DNA of 64,000 bases from Margaritifera margaritifera (lineage: Eukaryota > Mollusca > Bivalvia > Unionida > Margaritiferidae). This document shows positions 23,530-63,100 of this stretch, one piece after another. The stretch is taken from positions 620,001 to 684,000 of the forward strand of contig JAQPZY010001521.1 of assembly GCA_029931535.1 (NCBI GenBank). Direction: 5' to 3'. Each line of letters begins with the position of its first letter. Position 1 is the stretch's first letter. Under the pieces are notes generated by a model. That model was not told the DNA's origin, searched no databases, and saw only the letters and a list, made by a program, of their open reading frames with translations. Position numbers and translations under genes: made by a program.

Positions 23530-24657
23530 TTACTCCTTTATAATATGTAAGTGGCAACGTTGTTTCTGTTTCCACCTCCTGGGAGTGTTAAAGATATAAT
23601 TTAAGTCATTTACTTTCTTTTCAACGGTATAAGGACCATACAATTTAGCCCGAAGAGGATTTGGAGGTATGGGCAAGAGAGCTCGAACTTTCTCACCTGG
23701 CTTAAAACTCCTTTCCTGTGTATTTCTGTCATACCTTAATTTCATTTTAGTTCTTGCTACTTCACAAGCCTTTGACAACTTATATTTGAAACCTGAGACA
23801 TAGTCAAGAAGATTAATCTTTGAATCTTCATTTGAAAGATGTTTCTCTTTCAATGATTTCAATGGTCCACGGACAGTATGTCCAAAAACCAATTCAAATG
23901 GACCGGAACCCAATGAATTTGAACTGATTCCCTAACAACAAACAACAACAAATGAACACCCTCATCCCAATCCTTTCCTGTATCAAAGCAATAAGACCGA
24001 ATCATATTCTTCAAAGTTTGATGAAATCTTTCTAAAGCCCCTTGACTTTCAGGGTGATAGGCAGAAGCTTTAAACTGTTGAATGCCTTATTCATGCATAA
24101 CTTGTTGGAAAATTCCAGACATAAAAGGTGACCCTTGATCAGACTGAACAGATTTGGGAAGGCCAACAAGTGTAAAAACTTCACCAAAGCTATTACAATG
24201 GTTTTAGTTTTAATATTTCTCAAAGGAATTGCCTCTGGAAATCTTGTCGACGCACACATTATGGTCAACAAGTATTGGTTGCCTGACTTGGTCTTAGGTA
24301 ATGGACCGACGCAGTATACCATTATTCTACTAAATGGTTCGTCAAAAGCAGGCATAGGTTGCAGATGAGCCTTGGGTATCTTCTGATTGGGTTTTCCTAC
24401 CATTTGACAAGTGTGACAAGATCTACAGTATTTAGAAACATCACTTTTACGTTTCGGCCAGTAAAATGAGTCAAGATCTTGTGATAAGTCTTATTGAGTC
24501 CTAAATCACCAACCAAGGGAGTTTCATGGGCTAGACTAAGAATGTCTTGTTGATATGACCTCGGTACGACAATTTGATAACTCACTGACCACTTGTCACC
24601 AGCGTGTACCTCAAGTAGTCTCCATTTTCTCATAAGGAATTGTTCACAAAGAAACAC
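23530..24657 (-). pseudogene. Integrase of Gmr1-like copy 1
   Basis: From N to C: the zinc-binding H2C2 region (LSLAHETPLVGDLGLNKTYH, then CRSCHTCQ across a frame change near 24,410), the catalytic core (LPKTKSGNQYLLTIMCASTR at about 24,260-24,320), and the C-terminal region with a GPY module (LYGPYTVEKKVNDLNYIF, 23,530-23,913). The first catalytic Asp position before CVGPLP reads Tyr (IMVYCVGPL); copy 2 has Asp there. Another frameshift separates the core from its second Asp region. It lies upstream of the reverse transcriptase in the direction of transcription. Confidence 0.8.
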
Positions 24658-24661
24658 ACTG

Positions 24662-25330
24662 TCACTTGTGTGATTTCAGTTTCACTAATAGTTCTCTGAA
24701 ATAAACAGTCGATCTCAGGATCTTGTTCCTGTTTGACAAAGAGTGATTGTCTTTTGTCACGCTGAATAGAATAGAGAGAATAAGTTGTAAAAATAGGATC
24801 ACTGTGATCAATACCTTCTGATTGATCAATGTCAGGAGAGAAAGTGACCTCGTCAAAATACTGACCAATAAATGTGTCAGCTAAAGGAATAATTTCCTGC
24901 TCAACATCATTCTCAAGAGCTCCTTTTGCCATATCTCTGATAACTGCACAAGCAGGAAACAAATCAGGGATTTCAATCTCAATAGAAACAACTTTTTGAT
25001 CCAAACAAGGCTTGTCAGTTACAAGTCGATCAACCACGACCAATACTCCAGCAAGGTCATTGCCTAGTAACAATCTTCAATACGTAAACAAGTCACTCCC
25101 GAAACAGTCACAGGTCCTGAAACTAAGTCTGATACCAAATTGACACAATGGAGAGTAACATTTACATAGCCGCACTCTACTCCCTGAATAATTGCACTTT
25201 CACTAGAAGAAGACTTCTCAGACAAAGGCAAAGTACCTGACAACAATAGAGACTAAGACGCTCCTGTGTCCCTTAATATTTTAATATTGATAGGTTTGGC
25301 TGAATCGCCAATAAGTGATATAGAACCTTA
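24662..25330 (-). pseudogene. Aspartic protease and linker of Gmr1-like copy 1
   Basis: The retroviral-type protease active site DTGA lies at 25,259-25,270 (context ILRDTGAS, followed by a TAG). The frame continues with GVECGYVNVTLHCVNLVSD and, after a frame change, LLLGNDLAGVLVVVD, a typical second protease block. A long acidic linker to the integrase follows (24,662-25,000). Confidence 0.7.
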
Positions 25331-26767
25331 TGACATGAATAGTTCATAAGTCTCCATAATAGAATGAGACTGGAGTTTGTTTGACTCAACAAATGTATTG
25401 CTTTCAATACAAGACTGTGACCATGACCTCTTTGAAATAAGAGCATTTGGAATAGTTCTGTCTTTATTCTGTTGCTTATTTTTCAACCTGAGAGCAATCA
25501 GAATTGACGTGCCCTTTCTTTTTACAATAAGTGCATGTAGGAAGAGATAAGGATTCTGCTCAGTCTTATCAGACATTTGATTTCTAACAGTTGTGCTGAA
25601 ATTACTGGTTTTTTTTATTACCATAAAACTGCTTAGAGGAAGATCTATTGCCAAATAAACTTTTGTGAGTCAAGGAATAATCATCAGCCATACGAGCAGC
25701 ATTTTCCAAAGTTTCCACTTTCTGCTCGTTAAGATAAGTCTTGACATCAGTATGGATGCATCTCTTGAACTCTTCAAGTAATACGAGCTGTTTGAAGTTA
25801 TCGTAATCTTGATCAACCTTCTTGGCTGAGCACCACCTATCAAATAGTTGTTCTTTTTCCTTTGGAAATTCGAGATGAGTTTGTCCAGTTTTCTTTTCTA
25901 TAACTCCTAAAGTTTTGTCGATATGCCTCAGGTACCAAATCATTACCCTTACAGATGTACTCCTTAGCCACATCATAATCAGTGCTTTGTTGTACTGACA
26001 GTGAAGTGTAGACTTCACGAGCGTTGCCAATAAGTACACTTTGTAATAACTAAGTCCAATGCTCTCTTGGTCATTTTAAGTTTTCAGCAATTTTCTCAAA
26101 GTGAAGAAAGTATTTATCTACTTCTTTATCCTGAAAGGGGATACTAATCTAATATATCTGGATCTGGTAACATCAAAACCTGAACTTGTGTGTAAATGGG
26201 GGGGGGGGGGAGTGCTCCGCTTGCCAGTTATAATTCTTTTAATCTATATTGCATTTGTCTTTGCGTATGTCTCTCCTCTTTCTCTCTCTCGTTCGCAGCA
26301 TCTGCATTTCCCTTTCCTTCATTTCCCTCTCTTCTTTCTCTCATTTTCCTCTCCTCTTTTTTCTCTCTCTCTCTTTCTCTTCCATCTCTCTCCATTTCCT
26401 CTTTCACTCTCTCTGCATCTGCAGTTCCCTTTCCTTCGTTTCCGTCTTCTTCTCCTTTTTCTGAATTTGCAGTTCCAAGCTGAAGCGTACTTAATTCTAA
26501 TTCAACCTGGTTTGTTTCAGCTGTAATTCCTTTAATTTCCTATTAAACTAGATACAGTCTTATCAATTAAACCCAAATCACTATTATCCAAACTTACCTT
26601 CCCACCAAATATGGAATTAAAATATTATTTATCTCTTCCTTTGCCAAAGACGCTTTCGCCTCAGAAATATCATAATGTCTGGCAGGCTCAAGCAACTCGT
26701 CCTTTTTCGTAGACTCGAACCTTACCTGGGTAAGACTTGAAATAAAGTTCTCAACCTTAGATGACAT
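25330..26767 (-). pseudogene. Gag of Gmr1-like copy 1
   Basis: The likely start is the ATG at 26,765-26,767 (MSSKVENFISSLTQ), about 120 bases downstream of the primer-binding site. A highly charged Glu/Arg/Lys region follows, encoded by the CT-rich plus-strand tract at 26,270-26,470. Then comes a capsid-like segment (25,602-26,039, with VLLEEFKRCIHTDVKTYL and AARMADDYSLTH). A zinc knuckle CTYCKKKGHVNSDC at 25,494-25,535 lies in another frame. Several stops and frame changes interrupt it. Plus-strand Ser/Leu/Phe-rich frames here are shadows. Confidence 0.75.
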
Positions 26768-31877: not shown

Positions 31878-32486
31878 TTATAATATATCTTTAATATACT
31901 TATACAGAAGGCTGAATTGTCCTAGGTTTTTCTCAACATCCCGCATAATAATGTAGTTGCGGAATAAGATTTCTTCCGGGGAGGTAACTAGGAGAACTTG
32001 GTCGCTAATTATGGAAGAATTCAAGTACTGAGTGATAGATTCTCCCTGGCTCAAGGTTCCGATTTGAAGCTCACATAAGATAGTCCACAACTTGTTCAAC
32101 ACGGCTTTGATGTTGACCACGTGATTGGCGGCTGCATCACTAGAGGCCAAATTAGTATAGATGACTAGTTCAGAGAAATTTCCGAAGTTGCTCTTGAAAA
32201 GTTTTCCCAGCTGAAAGGATCAAAATAGAGATAGATAAAATGCAACAAATGTCAAACAATTAACAGCTACAATAATATGTTTGTGTCGGGAGAAGAAGAA
32301 TGTCCTGCATCAATCGTTCCCTTTTTGCATCGTTATAATCAATAGTTATTGCTCTTTGGATTCATATCCCTATATGTAATTTCTATTCATACAAATAAAG
32401 TATGTTCCATGCATACCAAATCTGACATTACAGTAGGTGATTGGTAACTCGACTTTTGTTGAAATTCGTTATAAGGTGAACAAAGA

Positions 32487-32566
<80 letters not shown>

Positions 32567-34387
32567 CTTGAAATGAATAGAATGCAATTGATAATAGGGA
32601 TCGTGAGTCAATCTGCAGATTACTGTCGTTTGTAACTGGAAAACTCAAAATACGTTGAATTTCACTTTCAAGGAAATGTCTACTTACATCTTTCTTAATG
32701 TCGAGGCCCGCTTTAACTTCTTCAGCGCTGATAGTTTTGAAAAACTTCAAGCTGTCCAAAAACATGACCATATCAGAGTTACCAATAGCCTGAGTCATCT
32801 GCAAATGTGCAAAAGAAAGCAAAAGTAATGTATTGGAAATAACCACTAGAACTTCTTATGGCAAATTATATTTCGCTAATAGTTAAACTGTTGTTGTACG
32901 ATCTGAGCATTCTTTCACCGTTTCTGTTTTAATTTATTAATTTATTTTAATTTTTAGGGGGATGAAATTGATTAAATATCTCATGAAACTTATATGTAAT
33001 GTTGATACACAGTGACCAATTTAGAAGGGATTCAAAGATAGTGGGTAGGTGCACACCCGTTCTTTTAAAACAGAAAATTTTGCAACAATAGACAGATAAA
33101 TTTAGACATATTCAGCAAAAAAATTGAAGCTAGTGTGTTATACAATGCTAAATATGCTAATGTCGAATGTTAATGTTAAACAATTCATGTTAAATATACT
33201 GACCTCGAATTTTGACGTTCCTGCAAGAGATTTTGCCTCATTGACGAGTATATGTAGTTGTGATATCGTCTCGTTGCTTGTTTTCTTATTTGCTTCCGTA
33301 ATCGTTACGGGGACCCCGCATGGTGTCTTGATGGCGTTGTTAATATCGCCAACTGGGGCACTTGAGGCGCCAAATAACTCTAGAGTAACCAAGAGACTGC
33401 TGAGAACCCAGCTGTATGCAGTACCTAAAGATAAGTATATACGGTAAGTTAGTGACACATTTTATTATACATGTAATATAGGTAGGAGGTGTGCGTGTTT
33501 CAACAATAATTTAATTTATTGACTCACACAAGGGTTCAGTCACTTATTTGTTATATATATATCTACGAAGCTAACGCGTAAATGTGTACAGCCGGTTCGA
33601 TTCACTTGCAATTCTTGACGAAAAGATTTTTTTTTCATCAGTGGAAACGCTGTCTGTTATAACAAAATGGCACTTATTAAAATGTTCCTTTTTTGTCATG
33701 CTCCTTTTTTTGAAAACAATAGTATTTTGTGGTTAATATGAATTGAGAAAGTGATAGAAGTTTTCAAAGGTCTATGAATGTAAATTTTAAGTGATATAGA
33801 TAACATTTTTCACTTTAAAGGCAGTATCTTTTAACTGCTCCACCTACATTTCGACCATTTTATCGTGTACATGGAGGTATTGTTTCATATAATGCAGCTT
33901 TTAGATTGAATGTGGCTATTTTCGATTTTCTGACATAAATATCTCTACCAAAGAAGGAAACAGTTTGAAATGGAGCGGGAACTTCACTCTGTTGTAGGAA
34001 GCGTATATTTCTCAGAGATCATGAGCCAACTACGCAAGAAAAGAGATGTCCGATGCAGATCAGGATTTAACTCGGAGTCCGTGCTGTGGAGGATGTTTTC
34101 TTTGAATACTGCTACTTTAGTGACTCGAATAAAGTATACGTTGACATTACAGCGGTAACCTGCATATGGTTACAATGAACATATACATACACCAAATTTC
34201 CACAACTTTAGTCAGTAAGATACAGAAGTTTAGCTACGAAAAATAATAAGAAGAGAATTAATTCCAGGATGAAATTGAGAAAAATGAAACGATAATTAAA
34301 ATCTTATCATGCGATATATGTGTATGTGCATGTCCGAGCGTATTTAGAGAGAGAGAGAGAGAGATACCTACCCAAATTGAATATCAT
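31878..34387 (-). CDS. Secreted four-helix cytokine-like protein (intact, 4 exons)
   Basis: Minus-strand exons: 34,372-34,387 (16 nt, MIFNL+G), 33,204-33,424, 32,688-32,798 and 31,878-32,210, giving 226 codons and a TAA. Donors are GTAGGT, GTCAGT and GTAAGT; acceptors end TTATCTTTAG, CACATTTGCAG and GATCCTTTCAG. Intron phases are 1, 0, 0. Residues 1-28 look like a signal peptide (cleavage near GASSA/PVG). The mature part has four probable amphipathic helices: A about 57-82, B about 103-135, C about 141-165, D about 194-225 (SPEEILFRNYIIMRDVEKN). The AB and CD loops are long and the BC loop short, as in up-up-down-down class I cytokines. Two Cys (41, 162) could pair; N-glycosylation sites are N56 and N180. 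The tiny first exon inside the signal peptide and the 1-0-0 phases also fit long-chain cytokine genes as I remember them. Sequence identity to a named cytokine is not evident; function is inference. Confidence 0.7.
32490..32560. repeat. TA microsatellite in intron 3 of the secreted-protein gene
   Basis: About 70 bases of TA repeats between exons 3 and 4 of the intact gene. It creates Ile-Tyr artefact frames. Confidence 0.95.
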
Positions 34388-34855
34388 TTTTGAAAATATA
34401 CGAACTGTTGAAAATTGTTATAGAAAATTCAATTGCAGTTTTGCAAAGTTATTTGCTTTTTTCATAAGGTCTGTTATAGTGTAGATTGTAGGTTGCTTTT
34501 ATACCATATATTGCCTACATCTGGAGTTTTCCAATGTGTCATTAGATTACCCAGATTTGCCGGCAGGATGAACATTCGGATATATCTAGACACATTACTA
34601 GGTAGCCAGTTTTTCTATGCCGAATTGCCTAATGAATTTACAAAGTATGTAACATTCTTCCGGCAAGCCTTGGTTGGCTGCGCTCAATTTTATCGGAAAC
34701 AGGCGGGTAAAACCAGGAAGTTTATTATGTGACATTCTGTATTGCACGAACATCGTTTTTAGAGTCAAACAGTTAACAAAAAATATAGGTAGGAGGTGTG
34801 CGTGTTTGAACAATAATTTAGTTTATTGACTCACACAAGGGTTCAGTTATTTATG

Positions 34856-41957: not shown

Positions 41958-43279
41958 TTATAATCTATCTTTAATATACTTATATAGAAAGCTAAATTGT
42001 TCTAGATTTTTCTCAGCATCCTGCTTAATGATGTAGTTACGGATTAAGATTTCCTCCGGGAAGGTAACTAGGAGAATTTGGTCTCCAATTATGGATGAAT
42101 TAAAGTATTGAGTGATAAATTCTCCTTGACTCAACTTTCAGATTTGAAGCTCACATAAAATGGTCCACAACTTGTTCAACACGGCATTGATGTTGACCAC
42201 ATGATTGGAGGCTGCATTACTAGCGGCCAAATTAATGTAGATGGCTAGCTCTGCGAAACTTCCGAAATTTCCGAAAAATACAGATAGAACAAATGCACGA
42301 AATGACAATCGCACCGCAATATTACATTAACAACCAGAGTAGGCCTGAATCATGGCTCCATTTTTCTTACCTTCGATTCCATATTCCTATGTATAAGTTA
42401 TATTCATACATATATTATTTGTTCCATGTATGCCAAATACGACAGTATAATAGGCGATTCGTAACTCGATATATACTGGATATATCGGTTCGATTCATTG
42501 TGTTTCAGTGAGTTGCATTTTATATGAAGCATTTCTTTCACAGACATATTTTCACACACACACACATATTTTCCCTGGCAATGCATATTTATAAAAAATA
42601 ATATGAAGAGTATAGGTACTTCAATCTAAACTTGAGATCAGGAAGACAAGAAATGAGGTATGTTGCCTCTCAAGATAGGACCCGTATGTCAATCTGCAGA
42701 TTACTGATTTTAATAAAGTAATCCCTACTGGAAAGTCAAAACACACCGCGTTTTATTGAGATCTACATTCACAATTTTTTGAATCTCAAGGCCCGCTATC
42801 ATTTTGTCAGTGTTGATAGTCTTAAAAAACTGGCAGTTGTTGTTGTCTAAAGACGTGCCCATCTTGGAGTTACTTGTAGCTTGAGTCATCTGCAAATTTG
42901 CAAGTGGAGGAAATACCATGTATCTGAAATTATAACGTCAACCTTTTGTCTGAAATTATATTTCGTCGCTCATACCGCCTAATATGTCAAATAATGTGGC
43001 AGTTTTGGGAGGTATATTTCACTGTTTTCCATTTCTAGTTCTAAAATTTCATTATATTTCTCATGAAACTTTCTTCTGTTATTTTAAATTGCGGCTCATT
43101 TAGAGAGTTTCATTGGAATACCACCCTTTCTGCAGTTAAAAAAGAATTTTTTTATAACGAAAGACAGTGAGATTTTTGGCATTTTCACCAACAGAACTAC
43201 ATAATCAAGATACTCTCCCCACCACCACCCACCCTGTAGAAAACATCATGGATCTACGCCTGCTAAAGTATCAATCATT

Positions 43280-43313
<34 letters not shown>

Positions 43314-44269
43314 CATTGTAAAGTGTAGGTTACGTCGTAATCCAACATTTCAACAAGTTTTATTGTTTCCGGGTGATTGAAAAGGAAACAAAAAACCAAA
43401 GGAAATTTAGCTTTCCATTGCACATTTCCGTGTTTAGTTTTCTTTTCACGTATTCAAATCGTCCTCAGACCCAAACCTATCCCTCTGATAGTGACGCTGA
43501 ATCATAAACCTATATTCTCCACATTTAGTATGTGTATTCTTCCCATGGTTATCTAGATTCTCGAGATTAACTAAGCATGCTAAGTAATGATGGTGGTGGT
43601 AGAGCGGATAGAAAAGGGTAGAAAGAGAATGGCATAAAGAGCGATGGTCTAATCAATATTTTGGATATACATGACAAAATGGGATTTAGCAATAATATAC
43701 ATAACTCCTTTGAGAATCGGAATGATTTAAATATAATTTCTATACATTTATTTCATCTAATCAGTAGGTCAAGATTTGTATTATTAAGCAACTTTACATG
43801 TGTAAATATTTGTGTTATTTAGCAACTTTGTATGTCTTAATATTTGTGTTATTAAACAACTTTGTATATATTAAAACTGCGTTATTTAGCAGCTTTGTAT
43901 GTTTTAATATTTGTGATGTTTAGCAACTTTGTATGTATTAATATTTGTATTCTTAAGCGACATTATATGTATTCAAATGTATTTAATGCTAAATATACCG
44001 CCCTCGGAATTTGTCTTATACAATGCATGTAAAATATACTGACCTAGGATTTTAACTTTCCAGCAAGAGATTGTGCCTTATTGACCAGTATATGTAGCTG
44101 TAATATCGTGTCTTTGCTTGTTTTGTTTTTTTATTTGATTCGGTAATCGTTACGGGGTTCCTGCCTGGTGTCTTGGTGGTTTTGTTGGGATCATTATGTC
44201 GGGCGCTAAAGGTACCACATAACTCTATAATAATCAAAAGAGCGCTGAGAACACAGCTGTATGCAGTGT
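41958..44269 (-). pseudogene. Decayed copy B of the four-helix secreted protein gene
   Basis: Exons equivalent to 2-4 of the intact gene: 44,044-44,269, 42,773-42,889 and 41,958-42,264. The signal-peptide exon keeps TAYSCVLSALLIIIELCG but has a 5-base insertion causing a frameshift, and its last codon before the donor is TAG. Exon 3 is two codons longer than in copy A (39 codons, as in copy C) and its donor reads GTGAAT. Exon 4 has lost its acceptor and first codons by deletion and has a TGA after LCELQI, but keeps helix D (PEEILIRNYIIKQDAEKN). The first coding exon was not found. Confidence 0.75.
43282..43311. repeat. GA microsatellite
   Basis: About 15 GA repeats, within intron sequence of copy B; comparable GA runs occur near the first exon of copies A (34,349-34,364) and D (55,644-55,658). 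Confidence 0.9.
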
Positions 44270-47170: not shown

Positions 47171-48223
47171 CTACGTTCTTTGGTGACTGAATTGTTCAAG
47201 GTTTTTCTCAACATCCCGCATAATGATGTAGTTACGGATTAATATTTCCTCTGGGAAGGTAATTAGGAGAACTTGGTCGCTAATTATGGAACTATTTAAG
47301 TACAGAGTGATAGATTCTCCCTGACTGAAGGTTTTGTTTTGAAGTTCACATAAGATGGTCCAGAACTTGTTCAAAGCGGCCTTCATATTGACTACATGAA
47401 TGGCGACTGCATCACCAGCGGCCAAATCAGTATAGATGGCTAGCTTTGGAAAATATCGAAGTTGCTCGTGAAACGTTTTCCAAGCTGAAAGGCCAACAAA
47501 TACTGATAGATAAAATCCACGAAATGACAACCAAATATCGCAATAACAATATTACGTCTGTCTTAAGCAAACCGGTGTTCTCAGTATGTTGCCGCTTTAT
47601 CTTACCTTGTCATTCAATATCTACTCATATTCAGATTCCATATTCCTATATAGAATTTATATTCGGACATATAACATTTGTTCCACGCATGCCAAATCAG
47701 AGAGTATAACAGGTTATTGGTAAATTTACTCGGATTGAAACTGGGTATATAGTGGGCCATGAGTCACGTTATATACTGGATATATCGATTCGATTCATTA
47801 TGATTGTCTGACTCTCATTTTATATAAAATATTTCCTTCAGAGACATATATTTACACAAACACACACGCACATATTTTCACTGACAATAAATATTTATAA
47901 AAATACTATTAAGAGTATAGATACTTCAATCCAAACGCGAGATCAGGAAAACTAGAAATGAAGTATTTCTCGAATAGCTAAAATGAATTCTGCTGCATCA
48001 GAATATAGGAAACATGTGTCAATCTGGCGACTACTCGTTTTAATAATGTAATCCCTTTTAGAAAGATCAAAACACATTGAATGTTCGCTGTTATCGAGAT
48101 CTATACCTGCACATTTTGAAAATCAAGGCTCGCTATCATTTCTTCAGCGTGGAGAGTCTTAAAATTCTTGAAGTTGTTGTCCAAAGACGTGACCATCTCG
48201 GAGTTACCTATAGCTTGAGTCAA
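47171..48223 (-). pseudogene. Decayed copy C of the four-helix secreted protein gene
   Basis: Exon 3 (48,107-48,223) has acceptor CTATCAG, starts TTG instead of ATG (LTQAIGNSEMVTSLDNNFKN) and ends at a GTATAG donor. Exon 4 (47,171-47,484) keeps its CTTTCAG acceptor but has a one-base deletion near LGKRFTSNFDIF that shifts the frame. After the shift helices C and D are well kept (EEILIRNYIIMRDVEKN). A deletion of about 50 bases removes the normal C-terminus, giving EQFSHQRT before a stop. Exons 1 and 2 were not found upstream. Confidence 0.75.
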
Positions 48224-48593
48224 CTGATAGGAAAACAATGCATTTGAAATTAGAACGTAAACTTTTATCCGAGATTATATTTCGTTGGTCATACTATTTA
48301 AATGATGTGGCAGGGATTAGAGTATTTTTGTTTTACTGCTTTCCATTTAAAGTTGTAAAGTTTAGTTCAATTGCTCATGAAACTTTCCCGAATGCGATTA
48401 AACTGTGGCTCATTTAGAGGGCTTCCTTTGAATTGTCCCATTTCTGCAGTTGAAAGAGAACATATTTGTTGTAACGAAAGACAGAGATATTTTACCATTT
48501 TCACCAACAGAACTACATAATAAACCTCCCACGACCACCACCACCCCTGTAAAAATAAATTATGGATCCACGCCTGCTAGAGTACCAATCATC

Positions 48594-54425: not shown

Positions 54426-54530
54426 ATGTTTAAAGCAGCAAATTTGCCCCCCAAAAAAGATATAAATAGCAGAATAATACACGATGATGTCGAATTTTAA
54501 TATAAAACAATTCATGATAAATATACTGAC

Positions 54531-55681
54531 CTCGAATGTTGACGTCCCTGCAAGAGATTTTGCGTCATTGACGACTATGTGATATCGTCTCTTTGCTCGT
54601 TTTCTTATTTGCGGGGCCCCCACAGGGTGTCTTCATGGAGCAGTTAATATCGACAACTGGAGCACTAAATATACCATATAACTCTAGAGTAACCAAAAGA
54701 CCGCTGAGAACTTAGATATATGCAGTACATAAAGATAAGTAAATACGGTAAGTAAGTAACACATATGAGTATAGATGTAATACAGGTAGGAGATGTGCGT
54801 ATTTCAACAATTATTTACTTTATTGACTCATGCTACGGTTCAGTTTCTTAAGTTATATACACAGAGCTAAGGCGAAAATTTGTTCAGCCGGTTGGAATAA
54901 CTTGCCAGTCTTTACGAAAAAAGGATGAGATTGTTTGCTTGATTGTAACGCTGCCTGTTAAAATAAAACGGCAATCATTAAATTATTTTTCTTTTCCTTT
55001 TGTCATCGTCCTTTTATTGAAAACAAAATTAGTCAGCTGTGGTTAGTAAGTTTGAGAAATGTGAAAGAAACTTTCCAGGAATTATCAAAGTGATTTTTAA
55101 ATGATACATGTAACATTTTTCATCTTAAAGTCAGTACCTTTAAAATGCTCTACCTGGCAACATTTCGACCATTTTATCGTGTACAAGGAGGTATATTTGT
55201 CTATAATGGAGCTTATATATTAAATTTGACTATTTTCGATTGTTCTGACTTAAATATCTTTTTAAAGGGAGGGTACTGTTTGAAATGGAGTGGGAACTTA
55301 CCTCTGTTATAGAATCACGAGCCAACTACATTAGAATAGAAATGTCTACTTCCGATCAGGATTTGACTCAGAGTCCGTGCTGTGGAGGAGTTTCGACTTG
55401 GAATACTGCTACTTTAATGACTCGGATAAAGTATACGTTGACAACACATCCCTGACCTGCATATGGTTATAATGAAAATATACATATACCAAATTTCCAC
55501 AATTTTAGCCAGTAGATAGAAAAGTTTAGCCACTAAAAATAATAATAAAATGAATTCCAGGAATGTAATAGAGAAACATGGAATGATAATGAAAATCTTA
55601 TCATGTGATGTAGATATTTTTGTGTGTAAGACCATATTTAAAGAGAAAGAGAGAGAGATGCCTACCCAAATTGAATTTCAT
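54531..55681 (-). pseudogene. Decayed copy D (first two exons only) of the secreted protein gene
   Basis: The first exon (55,666-55,681, MKFNL+G, donor GTAGGC) and second exon (54,531-54,728) resemble those of the intact gene. The acceptor AG has become AT, a TAA follows four codons later, and two deletions (23 bases net) shift the frame before the kept AKSLAGTSTFE end and GTCAGT donor. Exons 3 and 4 are absent downstream. Confidence 0.75.
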
Positions 55682-60150: not shown

Positions 60151-63100
60151 CGAACGATATCCGTGCGCGTCGAAAAGCTGACGTGGATTTCATCCATGAC
60201 TTGAATGCGTTTACGGGACCGGCTGTTGGAGAAAGAATCGCATGATGGATTGTCAAAGGAGGCATGAAGTCTAATATCGGCGCGCATTCGTTTTCGCGGA
60301 TATTCCGCGCTTTTCCCAAGCACGGATCCGTTCATCAACTTAAAGAAGCTTTTTTTTTCTTCAAATTCGTTCGTGGCGGCCGTCTGCAAATCCGTATTCA
60401 ACGAATGTAAGGGGCCATCAACTGATGGATCCGTGACACACACATCCCCAACCGTAGATACAACTGCAGGTTTCGTACGTAAACGACATAGTTGATCTTC
60501 GAGCGCAGATTAGGAAATAGCTTGCTGCATTCGACGAACTCACCTCCGGAATCATCCACGAGCACAAACTGGTAAGGTGACTGGGACGGTGACAACCACT
60601 TGCGTGTATCCGACATCTATTCCGGGGCGATGAAGATCGTCGGAGTATTCCAATTCAACTCCAAAAAGGTATCCGTGGTTGCTGTTTTTATTGTACTCTC
60701 ATTTGTGTTTTTGGATGTCTACATCCGCAGGATTGATCGTCGTAAACGCACAATCAGGCATTGTGTGTATCATTGCATAGTCATACAAGTTATGAGTATC
60801 AAGATACATCATGTAACAGATTGGGAGGGCGGGGTCTTATCCGTCCACGCTCAGGTGCCGCGGATACGATGATCAATAAACAAATGTTTATCGATGTCAG
60901 TGAACAGGTCCAACTTGATCTTGGCCTTCGATAGCAGTGCATTACAGGCCATTCATGGCAATGAGAAGTAATGCGTGGGGTCGAGCTTGTACACACGCAT
61001 GGTGGTATCGCGAAACGTCTCAAAGACACCCGCGAGCAGCAACACATCCGTGCGCAAATACAGATCGTGATAGTCGCCAAAATTTCGACAACCAAACGCC
61101 GAGCAGACGTTGTTCGCGTGCACGTAGTCGTTGACGGAAATGCCTTCGCAGGAAAGCGACGAATGGAAGGCGTCAATCGGTGGTAACTGAGTTTCAGACA
61201 ACTTTTCGCAATCGTGTATGTATCCGTAGGGGTAGATTCCTCTGCGCGTACGCAACTTGAACCTTTCATGTTCAGCGCCACCTTATCGACTAATAATCCT
61301 AACGCGGTCATCGCAAAGGTTGTTAACGATAGTGTCCAGGCTGGAATTGAGAAACTGCAGCGAGTCAATGAAGTGCAGCTGGCCCAGTCGAAACGTATGT
61401 ATTTTTTCATGATGGGAATGACACTTATTGCCGCATGCGATGCCCTTGAGATTCTTCGCATGATTAAGTGATCATCATACCCGTGCATGTTATGAATCAC
61501 AACCGGAATTCTTATTTTACCGGGGTAAATTCGCAGCTGCAGGTTGCATGCACTGTGTGCGGCTCCTCTGTACGCGCCAGTGATGTGGCAGTGATCGCGA
61601 ATTTTATTTTTATCGGTGGAGCTGAAAGCTCCATCACAGATCGAGCAATGAGTCGCCGCGGAAAACTCGCGAATGTCATCACGGGTCAAAATAATGTCTC
61701 AGGGCGAGGAAAAATGTCGGATCCATTTCGTTGTAACTTCGAGCGATTTAATAAACACCTCAACCGAGTTTCCTGCCGCGGTTTGACATTGGCGGCTCAG
61801 TCGCTCCGTTGCCTCTGATAACATTGTAGCAAAATCCGGATTGAACAGCGGGTGGCGGCGAAGCGTTCTTCGGAAATGTTCAAGCATTCAAAGTCCGCGT
61901 AAATGATATATGTAACTTTCATCTTCCGCTGTACCGCTGTAAATTTCAGAATATTCTTGCCAGGTTCTGGCATAATCGCACGCTGCGGCGTCTCGCTAAC
62001 ACCTCCCCCGCGGTAAAAATCATGGCCGTCAAGCAGCTGTTTGGTGCAAAATACATGCAGGCAGCGTCGACGTGAAAACGTTATATCATGGTGTTTGCTG
62101 AGCCGGCAAACTTTTCGTGGAAAATTTTTTTTCCACATGTAGTGGTACCGCGCCGCTGGAGTTTAAGAGCCGTCCACGTTTTACATGTTTCTCAATGACA
62201 GCAGATTAATAGGATTAGTCCGCAAAAGGGTGGATAATCAAATCGGCTGAAGACCACTGTACCAAATAAACACATTAATGGCGATATCGGGATTGAGTCG
62301 TTCAAACTTACTGATGTCAGTAACCTGTACAGGGAATTCTCTGTTACCAAGTTTGAGTTCACCCATGAACTGTTTGTATTTTCGAGGTTGATCTGTATGA
62401 TCGCAAGCAGAATAAGATCGCCCATTCGAAATACATGTCATTGTTTTCGACGTTTATTACTGCCCACCGTGGAATACACGCTGGTGTTGGAATATAACTC
62501 GACACACGGAAAGGTCTGTACCAGGAACTATGAAGTTGAACTTCCAAGCATATGGAAAAACTTTATTCTGAACCTCCTTGGTTGTAATTATCAAACGCCG
62601 CGAGGATCTTTGTCGATTTCACCATTCATAGCATCTGTGTCTCTGTGGTTTAAGATTACACGGGCACCACAGTGAAACCACCGGCGTACGAAATGAACGC
62701 TTTTGAAGGAGTAAATCACCATGATAAACTCCACATTGAGAATAATGTCCACCTTGAATCCAGACTGTAGAGCTGTTGCGCCCGCGTGCTGCAATGATAA
62801 TATTATTCCTAGACGCATGTTTGAAAGAAGCTTCACAGAGTATCTGTCTGGCTTGTATTCGTTTGGGATAATTGCCCGATAATCTTCGAAAGCATTAGGG
62901 CGCTTGTCTGGCTTGTGCAACTTAAACTCTGGGACTTGGATTTGTTGACGAGACAGTGCGGCAGCCTCAGAGGCAATAGTAGCTGCGATATGGCGGCGGT
63001 TTTCCTCATCAGCGACCACATATGCCATTTCTGCAAGCTTGGCCCGTGAAGGAATCTTGATATGTGAATGCGCTCCTGTTGCACGAAGCTGTCTCACAGT

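Follow-up and report, generated by a model that had tools for sequence, protein, structure and literature searches.

Is there a helical ligand of the interleukin-6 kind in molluscs, from which an IL-6/IL-11-type messenger is so far unreported? The question is raised by a minus-strand gene in a 64,000-nucleotide (nt) stretch of the Margaritifera margaritifera genome (the window; C1224:620001-684000 in our contig numbering), which an initial annotation had read as an intact and apparently undescribed gene for a secreted four-helix ligand. We find that the gene is one member of a tandemly multiplied family, and our favoured reading, held with moderate confidence and drawn from the gene layout and one low-confidence predicted fold, is that it would encode a secreted glycoprotein ligand of a long-chain class I helical cytokine-like family, so far only in Unionida.

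A conserved four-exon gene and its family

The gene comprises four exons amounting to 681 nt, i.e. 226 codons plus the stop, separated by introns of 947, 405 and 477 nt that all have GT...AG ends, with phases 1-0-0 as derived from the exon lengths; this reproduced exactly the model and coordinates of the initial annotation (Table 1). The 16-nt exon 1 recurs in the listed paralogs with at most three mismatches over the 22 nt compared, and in 13 of 21 compared upstream regions, which include several near-identical copies, the exact octamer TATAAAAG lies 93-145 nt ahead of the ATG. A similar stretch of ~80 nt (TGACTCACACAAGGGTTCAG-type sequence), noticed by eye both upstream of the gene (34866-34781) and within intron 1 (33551-33470), is perhaps a small mobile repeat.

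A protein search at an expect value (E) ≤ 0.001 yielded 15 homologs of 67-85% identity, all named 'hypothetical proteins' and derived from two unionid mussels, Potamilus streckersoni and Sinanodonta woodiana, with query coverage of 96-100% in 14 of them and 49% in P0015. By a profile search at E ≤ 10, which scored only the 7996 candidates with the most words in common, 19 proteins were retrieved, namely the same 15 and four more, again from both mussels. One protein, P0016 (Sinanodonta ACJMK2_005444, 420 aa), reached 724 bits in the profile search compared with at most 471 for single copies, and is either two tandem genes annotated as one or a member with two domains. As far as these sequence searches reach, the family is known so far only from Unionida. 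No report on it was found in the literature covered, from which most subscription journals were absent, in agreement with its description as apparently undescribed.

Within the M. margaritifera genome itself (2.45 Gb, 1696 contigs), 83 exon-level matches were detected, 79 of them on C1224 (~162-730 kb), three on C1202 and one on C1696; the window gene is one copy of a tandem multi-copy family, a fact that the initial annotation had missed. We modelled 29 gene places, i.e. the window gene and 28 outside the window, leaving out three broken or partial copies within it. An uninterrupted four-exon frame of more than 200 residues was present in 12 places, all retaining phases 1-0-0, while the 17 others comprised six without an exon match, four missing a splice site or the first exon, six with a stop or early end, and L034, an excluded copy with an open frame but an altered end of exon 2; some of these 17 calls may reflect script limits.

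The ratios of non-synonymous to synonymous substitution rates (dN/dS) of the window gene against nine intact copies were 0.11 (L026), 0.22 (L017), 0.44 (L023), 0.27 (L027), 0.33 (L029), 0.36 (L011), 0.40 (L012), 0.41 (L013) and 0.38 (L030). Among 45 pairs of ten representatives, with L014 and L035 omitted as near-copies of L013, the whole-frame median was 0.39, with exon 4 lower (0.31) and exon 3 higher (0.58), so on average, as pairwise whole-frame or exon averages, the family is under purifying selection. The gene is therefore real and not a chance assembly, because 15 annotated and four profile-found mussel proteins correspond to it, splice sites and exon 1 are kept in many paralogs, and dN/dS is well below 1. 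Broken sister copies occur both in the window and at the places fetched, as would be expected if the gene model were spurious or the copy dead, but such an explanation is almost certainly wrong here: the window copy has a full frame under purifying selection, so the term 'intact' stands, and Sinanodonta P0002, P0008 and P0010 are likewise 226 residues long.

Seven near-identical family copies are spaced at 11.1-11.7 kb in C1224:383-454 kb. In an ungapped comparison of six array copies against L013, three were identical after residue 6 and L012 differed at 8 of 218 places, L033 and L034 (altered exon 2 end) not being measurable in this way. Near-identity of this kind marks this stretch of the array as young; judged from its sequence, it is a recent tandem amplification. 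In a midpoint-rooted FastTree of 22 proteins, the window gene paired with L026 (support 0.79), seven of ten own-genome copies clustered together (0.95), as did, separately, nine proteins from Sinanodonta and Potamilus (0.98); the placement of L017 with P0001, P0004 and P0009 was unsupported (0.00 and 0.25). This grouping suggests that the family has expanded separately in mussel lineages.

Features of the encoded protein

The signal peptide, read by eye, has a hydrophobic core at about residues 11-23 followed by GASSA/PVGD, leaving 198 residues, and the protein is probably secreted, with cleavage expected after Ala28. The mature protein has two cysteines, Cys41 and Cys162, which are invariant in all 22 aligned family proteins, and N-glycosylation sequons occur at N180 (all 22 members), N127 (21) and N56 (11). 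The earlier description of four long amphipathic helices was borne out for three of them: at 100 degrees, 249, 266 and 730 of 5000 shuffles matched or exceeded the hydrophobic moments of helices B, C and D, respectively, but that of helix A was not high (1436 of 5000). No such moment was seen in the AB or CD loop (3040 and 3200 of 5000).

A long-chain class I four-helix plan in one of two models

The initial annotation had assigned the protein to the long-chain class I four-helix plan and proposed fold prediction with a structure search as a check, for which two AlphaFold models gave different answers. In the second model, four main helices are joined by AB and CD loops that are long and a BC loop that is short, and 47 of the 50 Protein Data Bank (PDB) matches listed are long-chain class I cytokines with IL-11 first, the arrangement resembling IL-11, IL-6, IL-27 and prolactin among those listed. 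Judged by these matches, the model would have the up-up-down-down topology, which the first model does not show. The assigned plan thus reappeared in this model and its listed matches, but neither in the first model nor in any sequence match.

Several results weigh against a class I assignment. The second model is of low confidence (predicted local distance difference test, pLDDT, 43; predicted template modelling score, pTM, 0.44), and the first model, led by P0002 with 18 alignment rows, had a pTM of 0.29 and no cytokine among the matches listed. Pfam, searched with 16 members at E ≤ 10 under HMMER filters that discard most matches above E 0.1, returned no cytokine model (best unrelated match E 0.051), and the family profile matched no PDB sequence at E ≤ 10. 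The profile comparison with cytokines, also proposed earlier, was null as well, hhalign probabilities being 0.04-0.34% for LIF, entered as an alignment of 45 sequences, and for eight cytokines entered as single sequences. This last test is a weak one and leaves membership possible, because known cytokines fail to link in it: LIF retrieved OSM at 36.8%, but IL-6, G-CSF and growth hormone (GH) at 0.13-0.26%, with LIF and OSM alone of the nine yardsticks verified against PDB. No profile match was obtained to the named Pfam subfamilies (IL6, LIF_OSM, CNTF, hormone_1 and the like), so the family is filed under none of them, and the prokaryote library NCBIfam gave nothing of cytokine kind (the best match was unrelated, at E 0.0077 and well short of the cut-offs).

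Under a second explanation, which we consider distinctly less probable than a class I ligand, the protein would be a secreted helical bundle of another nature, i.e. a lineage-specific effector, reproductive or structural protein, with a likeness to cytokines in outline only. The results just given against a class I assignment leave room for it, but the narrow match list of the second model, with nearly all listed matches in one cytokine class, is improbable for an arbitrary bundle, and the phases 1-0-0, the two cysteines and the loop lengths fit class I; moreover, the average selection is purifying and not diversifying. A helical ligand of another class, i.e. short-chain class I, class II (IL-10/interferon) or Unpaired-like, appears unlikely. 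These classes are inseparable by sequence alone, and five of the 50 viral-library matches listed are named viral IL-10 homologs; on the other side, no Pfam family of such kinds was matched, and none of the 50 PDB matches listed is class II or short-chain by title, which leaves room for families beyond those listed. If the class I reading holds, the mussel proteins would be a new family of a known kind.

Comparison with named cytokine systems

In long-chain class I cytokine genes the first coding exon is very short and the intron phases are 1-0-0(-0); the window gene, with a first coding exon of 16 nt and phases 1-0-0, follows this plan. The IL-6 gene plan, 1-0-0-0, resembles that of the mussel gene, but an intron separates helices C and D in IL-6, whereas both lie in one coding exon in the mussel. 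No literature source was found for the long-chain plan; PMC4690019, in the part available, treats the IL-3/IL-5/GM-CSF group.

The gp130-type cytokines IL-11, IL-6 and IL-27 provide the nearest solved structures to the second model among the matches listed and share its loop lengths, without sequence similarity to the mussel family detectable by Pfam, PDB sequences or hhalign. In LIF and OSM, a disulfide links the N-terminal arm to helix C, and the mussel cysteines, one before helix A and the other near the end of helix C, would fit such an arm-to-C pairing; the hhalign probabilities were 0.34% with LIF and 0.17% with OSM, and the further cysteine bond of these two cytokines has no counterpart in the mussel protein. 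Prolactin, GH, G-CSF and leptin are of the same predicted fold class and occur among the second-model matches listed, but their disulfide plan is unlike that of the mussel protein; hhalign was null for GH, G-CSF and leptin, prolactin lying outside the sequence comparison. Insect Upd ligands of Domeless are also invertebrate JAK/STAT ligands, according to the available part of PMC13203501; no Upd family was among the Pfam matches of the mussel proteins, and no direct comparison was made.

Signalling context and possible function

In the available part of a 2026 survey of 18 metazoan phyla/subphyla (PMC13203501), IL6R, JAK and STAT occur together in Mollusca, no invertebrate IL6 is reported, Upd is placed in insects, and alternative ligands are proposed to operate the receptor. 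The thresholds given there are BLAST E ≤ 1e-5 and identity ≥ 30%, therefore a family like the mussel one would stay unlinked to IL-6, as it did in the hhalign comparison. As for gp130, the text of PMC8226699, in the part available, has the chain first appear in molluscs, and a figure legend of the same paper in lampreys.

In the M. margaritifera genome, STAT exons were detected above cut-off. The search for a receptor in the same genome, another check proposed earlier, did not succeed: IL6Ra-bind gave noise and nothing over the cut-off, and Jak1_Phl likewise gave noise only, exon-split domains being hard to detect in this way. A match to IL6Ra-bind on C1607 (E 0.42, under cut-off, one stop) was rejected for its repeat-like frames and no fibronectin-like stretch by eye, and one to Jak1_Phl on C1158 (E 0.019, under cut-off) was rejected as lysine-rich low-complexity sequence. 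The frame beside the rejected receptor match (L037, 1266-1520, minus strand) has a laminin G-type look by eye.

If the protein is a class I ligand, the secreted chain would fold into a four-helix bundle held by one disulfide, in which a Cys41-Cys162 bond may tie the N-terminal arm to helix C as in LIF and OSM. By analogy with the fold class, it would bridge two class I receptor chains of the gp130/Domeless-like type that published work reports for molluscs, and so trigger JAK/STAT signalling, and the multiple copies might provide variants of dose and specificity. A class I cytokine would give a named candidate for the missing molluscan ligand, where the receptor and pathway have been reported without one, and would make the origin time of IL-6-type ligands a question for binding experiments.

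Unionid larvae parasitise fish, as stated in the available part of PMC10090606. Since the known range of the family lies in the order with fish-parasitic larvae, and since the family is tandemly multiplied, a reading at the mussel-fish interface is allowed, which we regard as a long shot: IL-6/IL-11-like ligands released by the parasitic glochidium larva would act on the receptors of the fish host, shaping cyst formation and tolerance. Just as speculatively, such ligands might be an animal counterpart of viral cytokine mimics.

Features in the window

Table 1. Positions of the gene, its paralogs and retroelement matches in the window
Feature	Position	Strand	Description
Exon 1, 16 nt	34372..34387	-	ATG and first signal-peptide residues; donor GTAGGT; phase 1
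Exon 2, 221 nt	33204..33424	-	remaining signal peptide, Cys41, most of helix A (second model); donor GTCAGT; phase 0
Exon 3, 111 nt	32688..32798	-	end of helix A, AB loop, start of helix B (second model); donor GTAAGT; phase 0
Exon 4, 333 nt including stop	31878..32210	-	rest of helix B, helix C with Cys162, CD loop, helix D (second model)
TATA box TATAAAAG	34496..34503	-	first base 116 nt before the ATG
Broken paralog	41961..44267	-	exon 4 with stop 42281-41961; exon 3-like 42901-42752; exon 2 in two frames 44267-44050; tblastn
Partial paralog	47186..48229	-	exon 4 47479-47186; exon 3-like 48229-48116; tblastn
Broken paralog fragment	54492..54738	-	exon 2 with stop and frame change; tblastn
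Integrase zinc-binding	24032-24490	-	E 3.6e-08
SCAN-like frame	25602-26075	-	E 1.2e-08
Integrase C-terminal	23530-23931	-	weak match under cut-off

Retroelement remains were observed at 23530-26075 on the minus strand. Elsewhere in the window, a 299-aa open frame on the minus strand (60799-61698) matched Endonuclease_7 (E 2.7e-05), and together with the further long frames adjoining it up to 63.8 kb probably belongs to a large mobile element.
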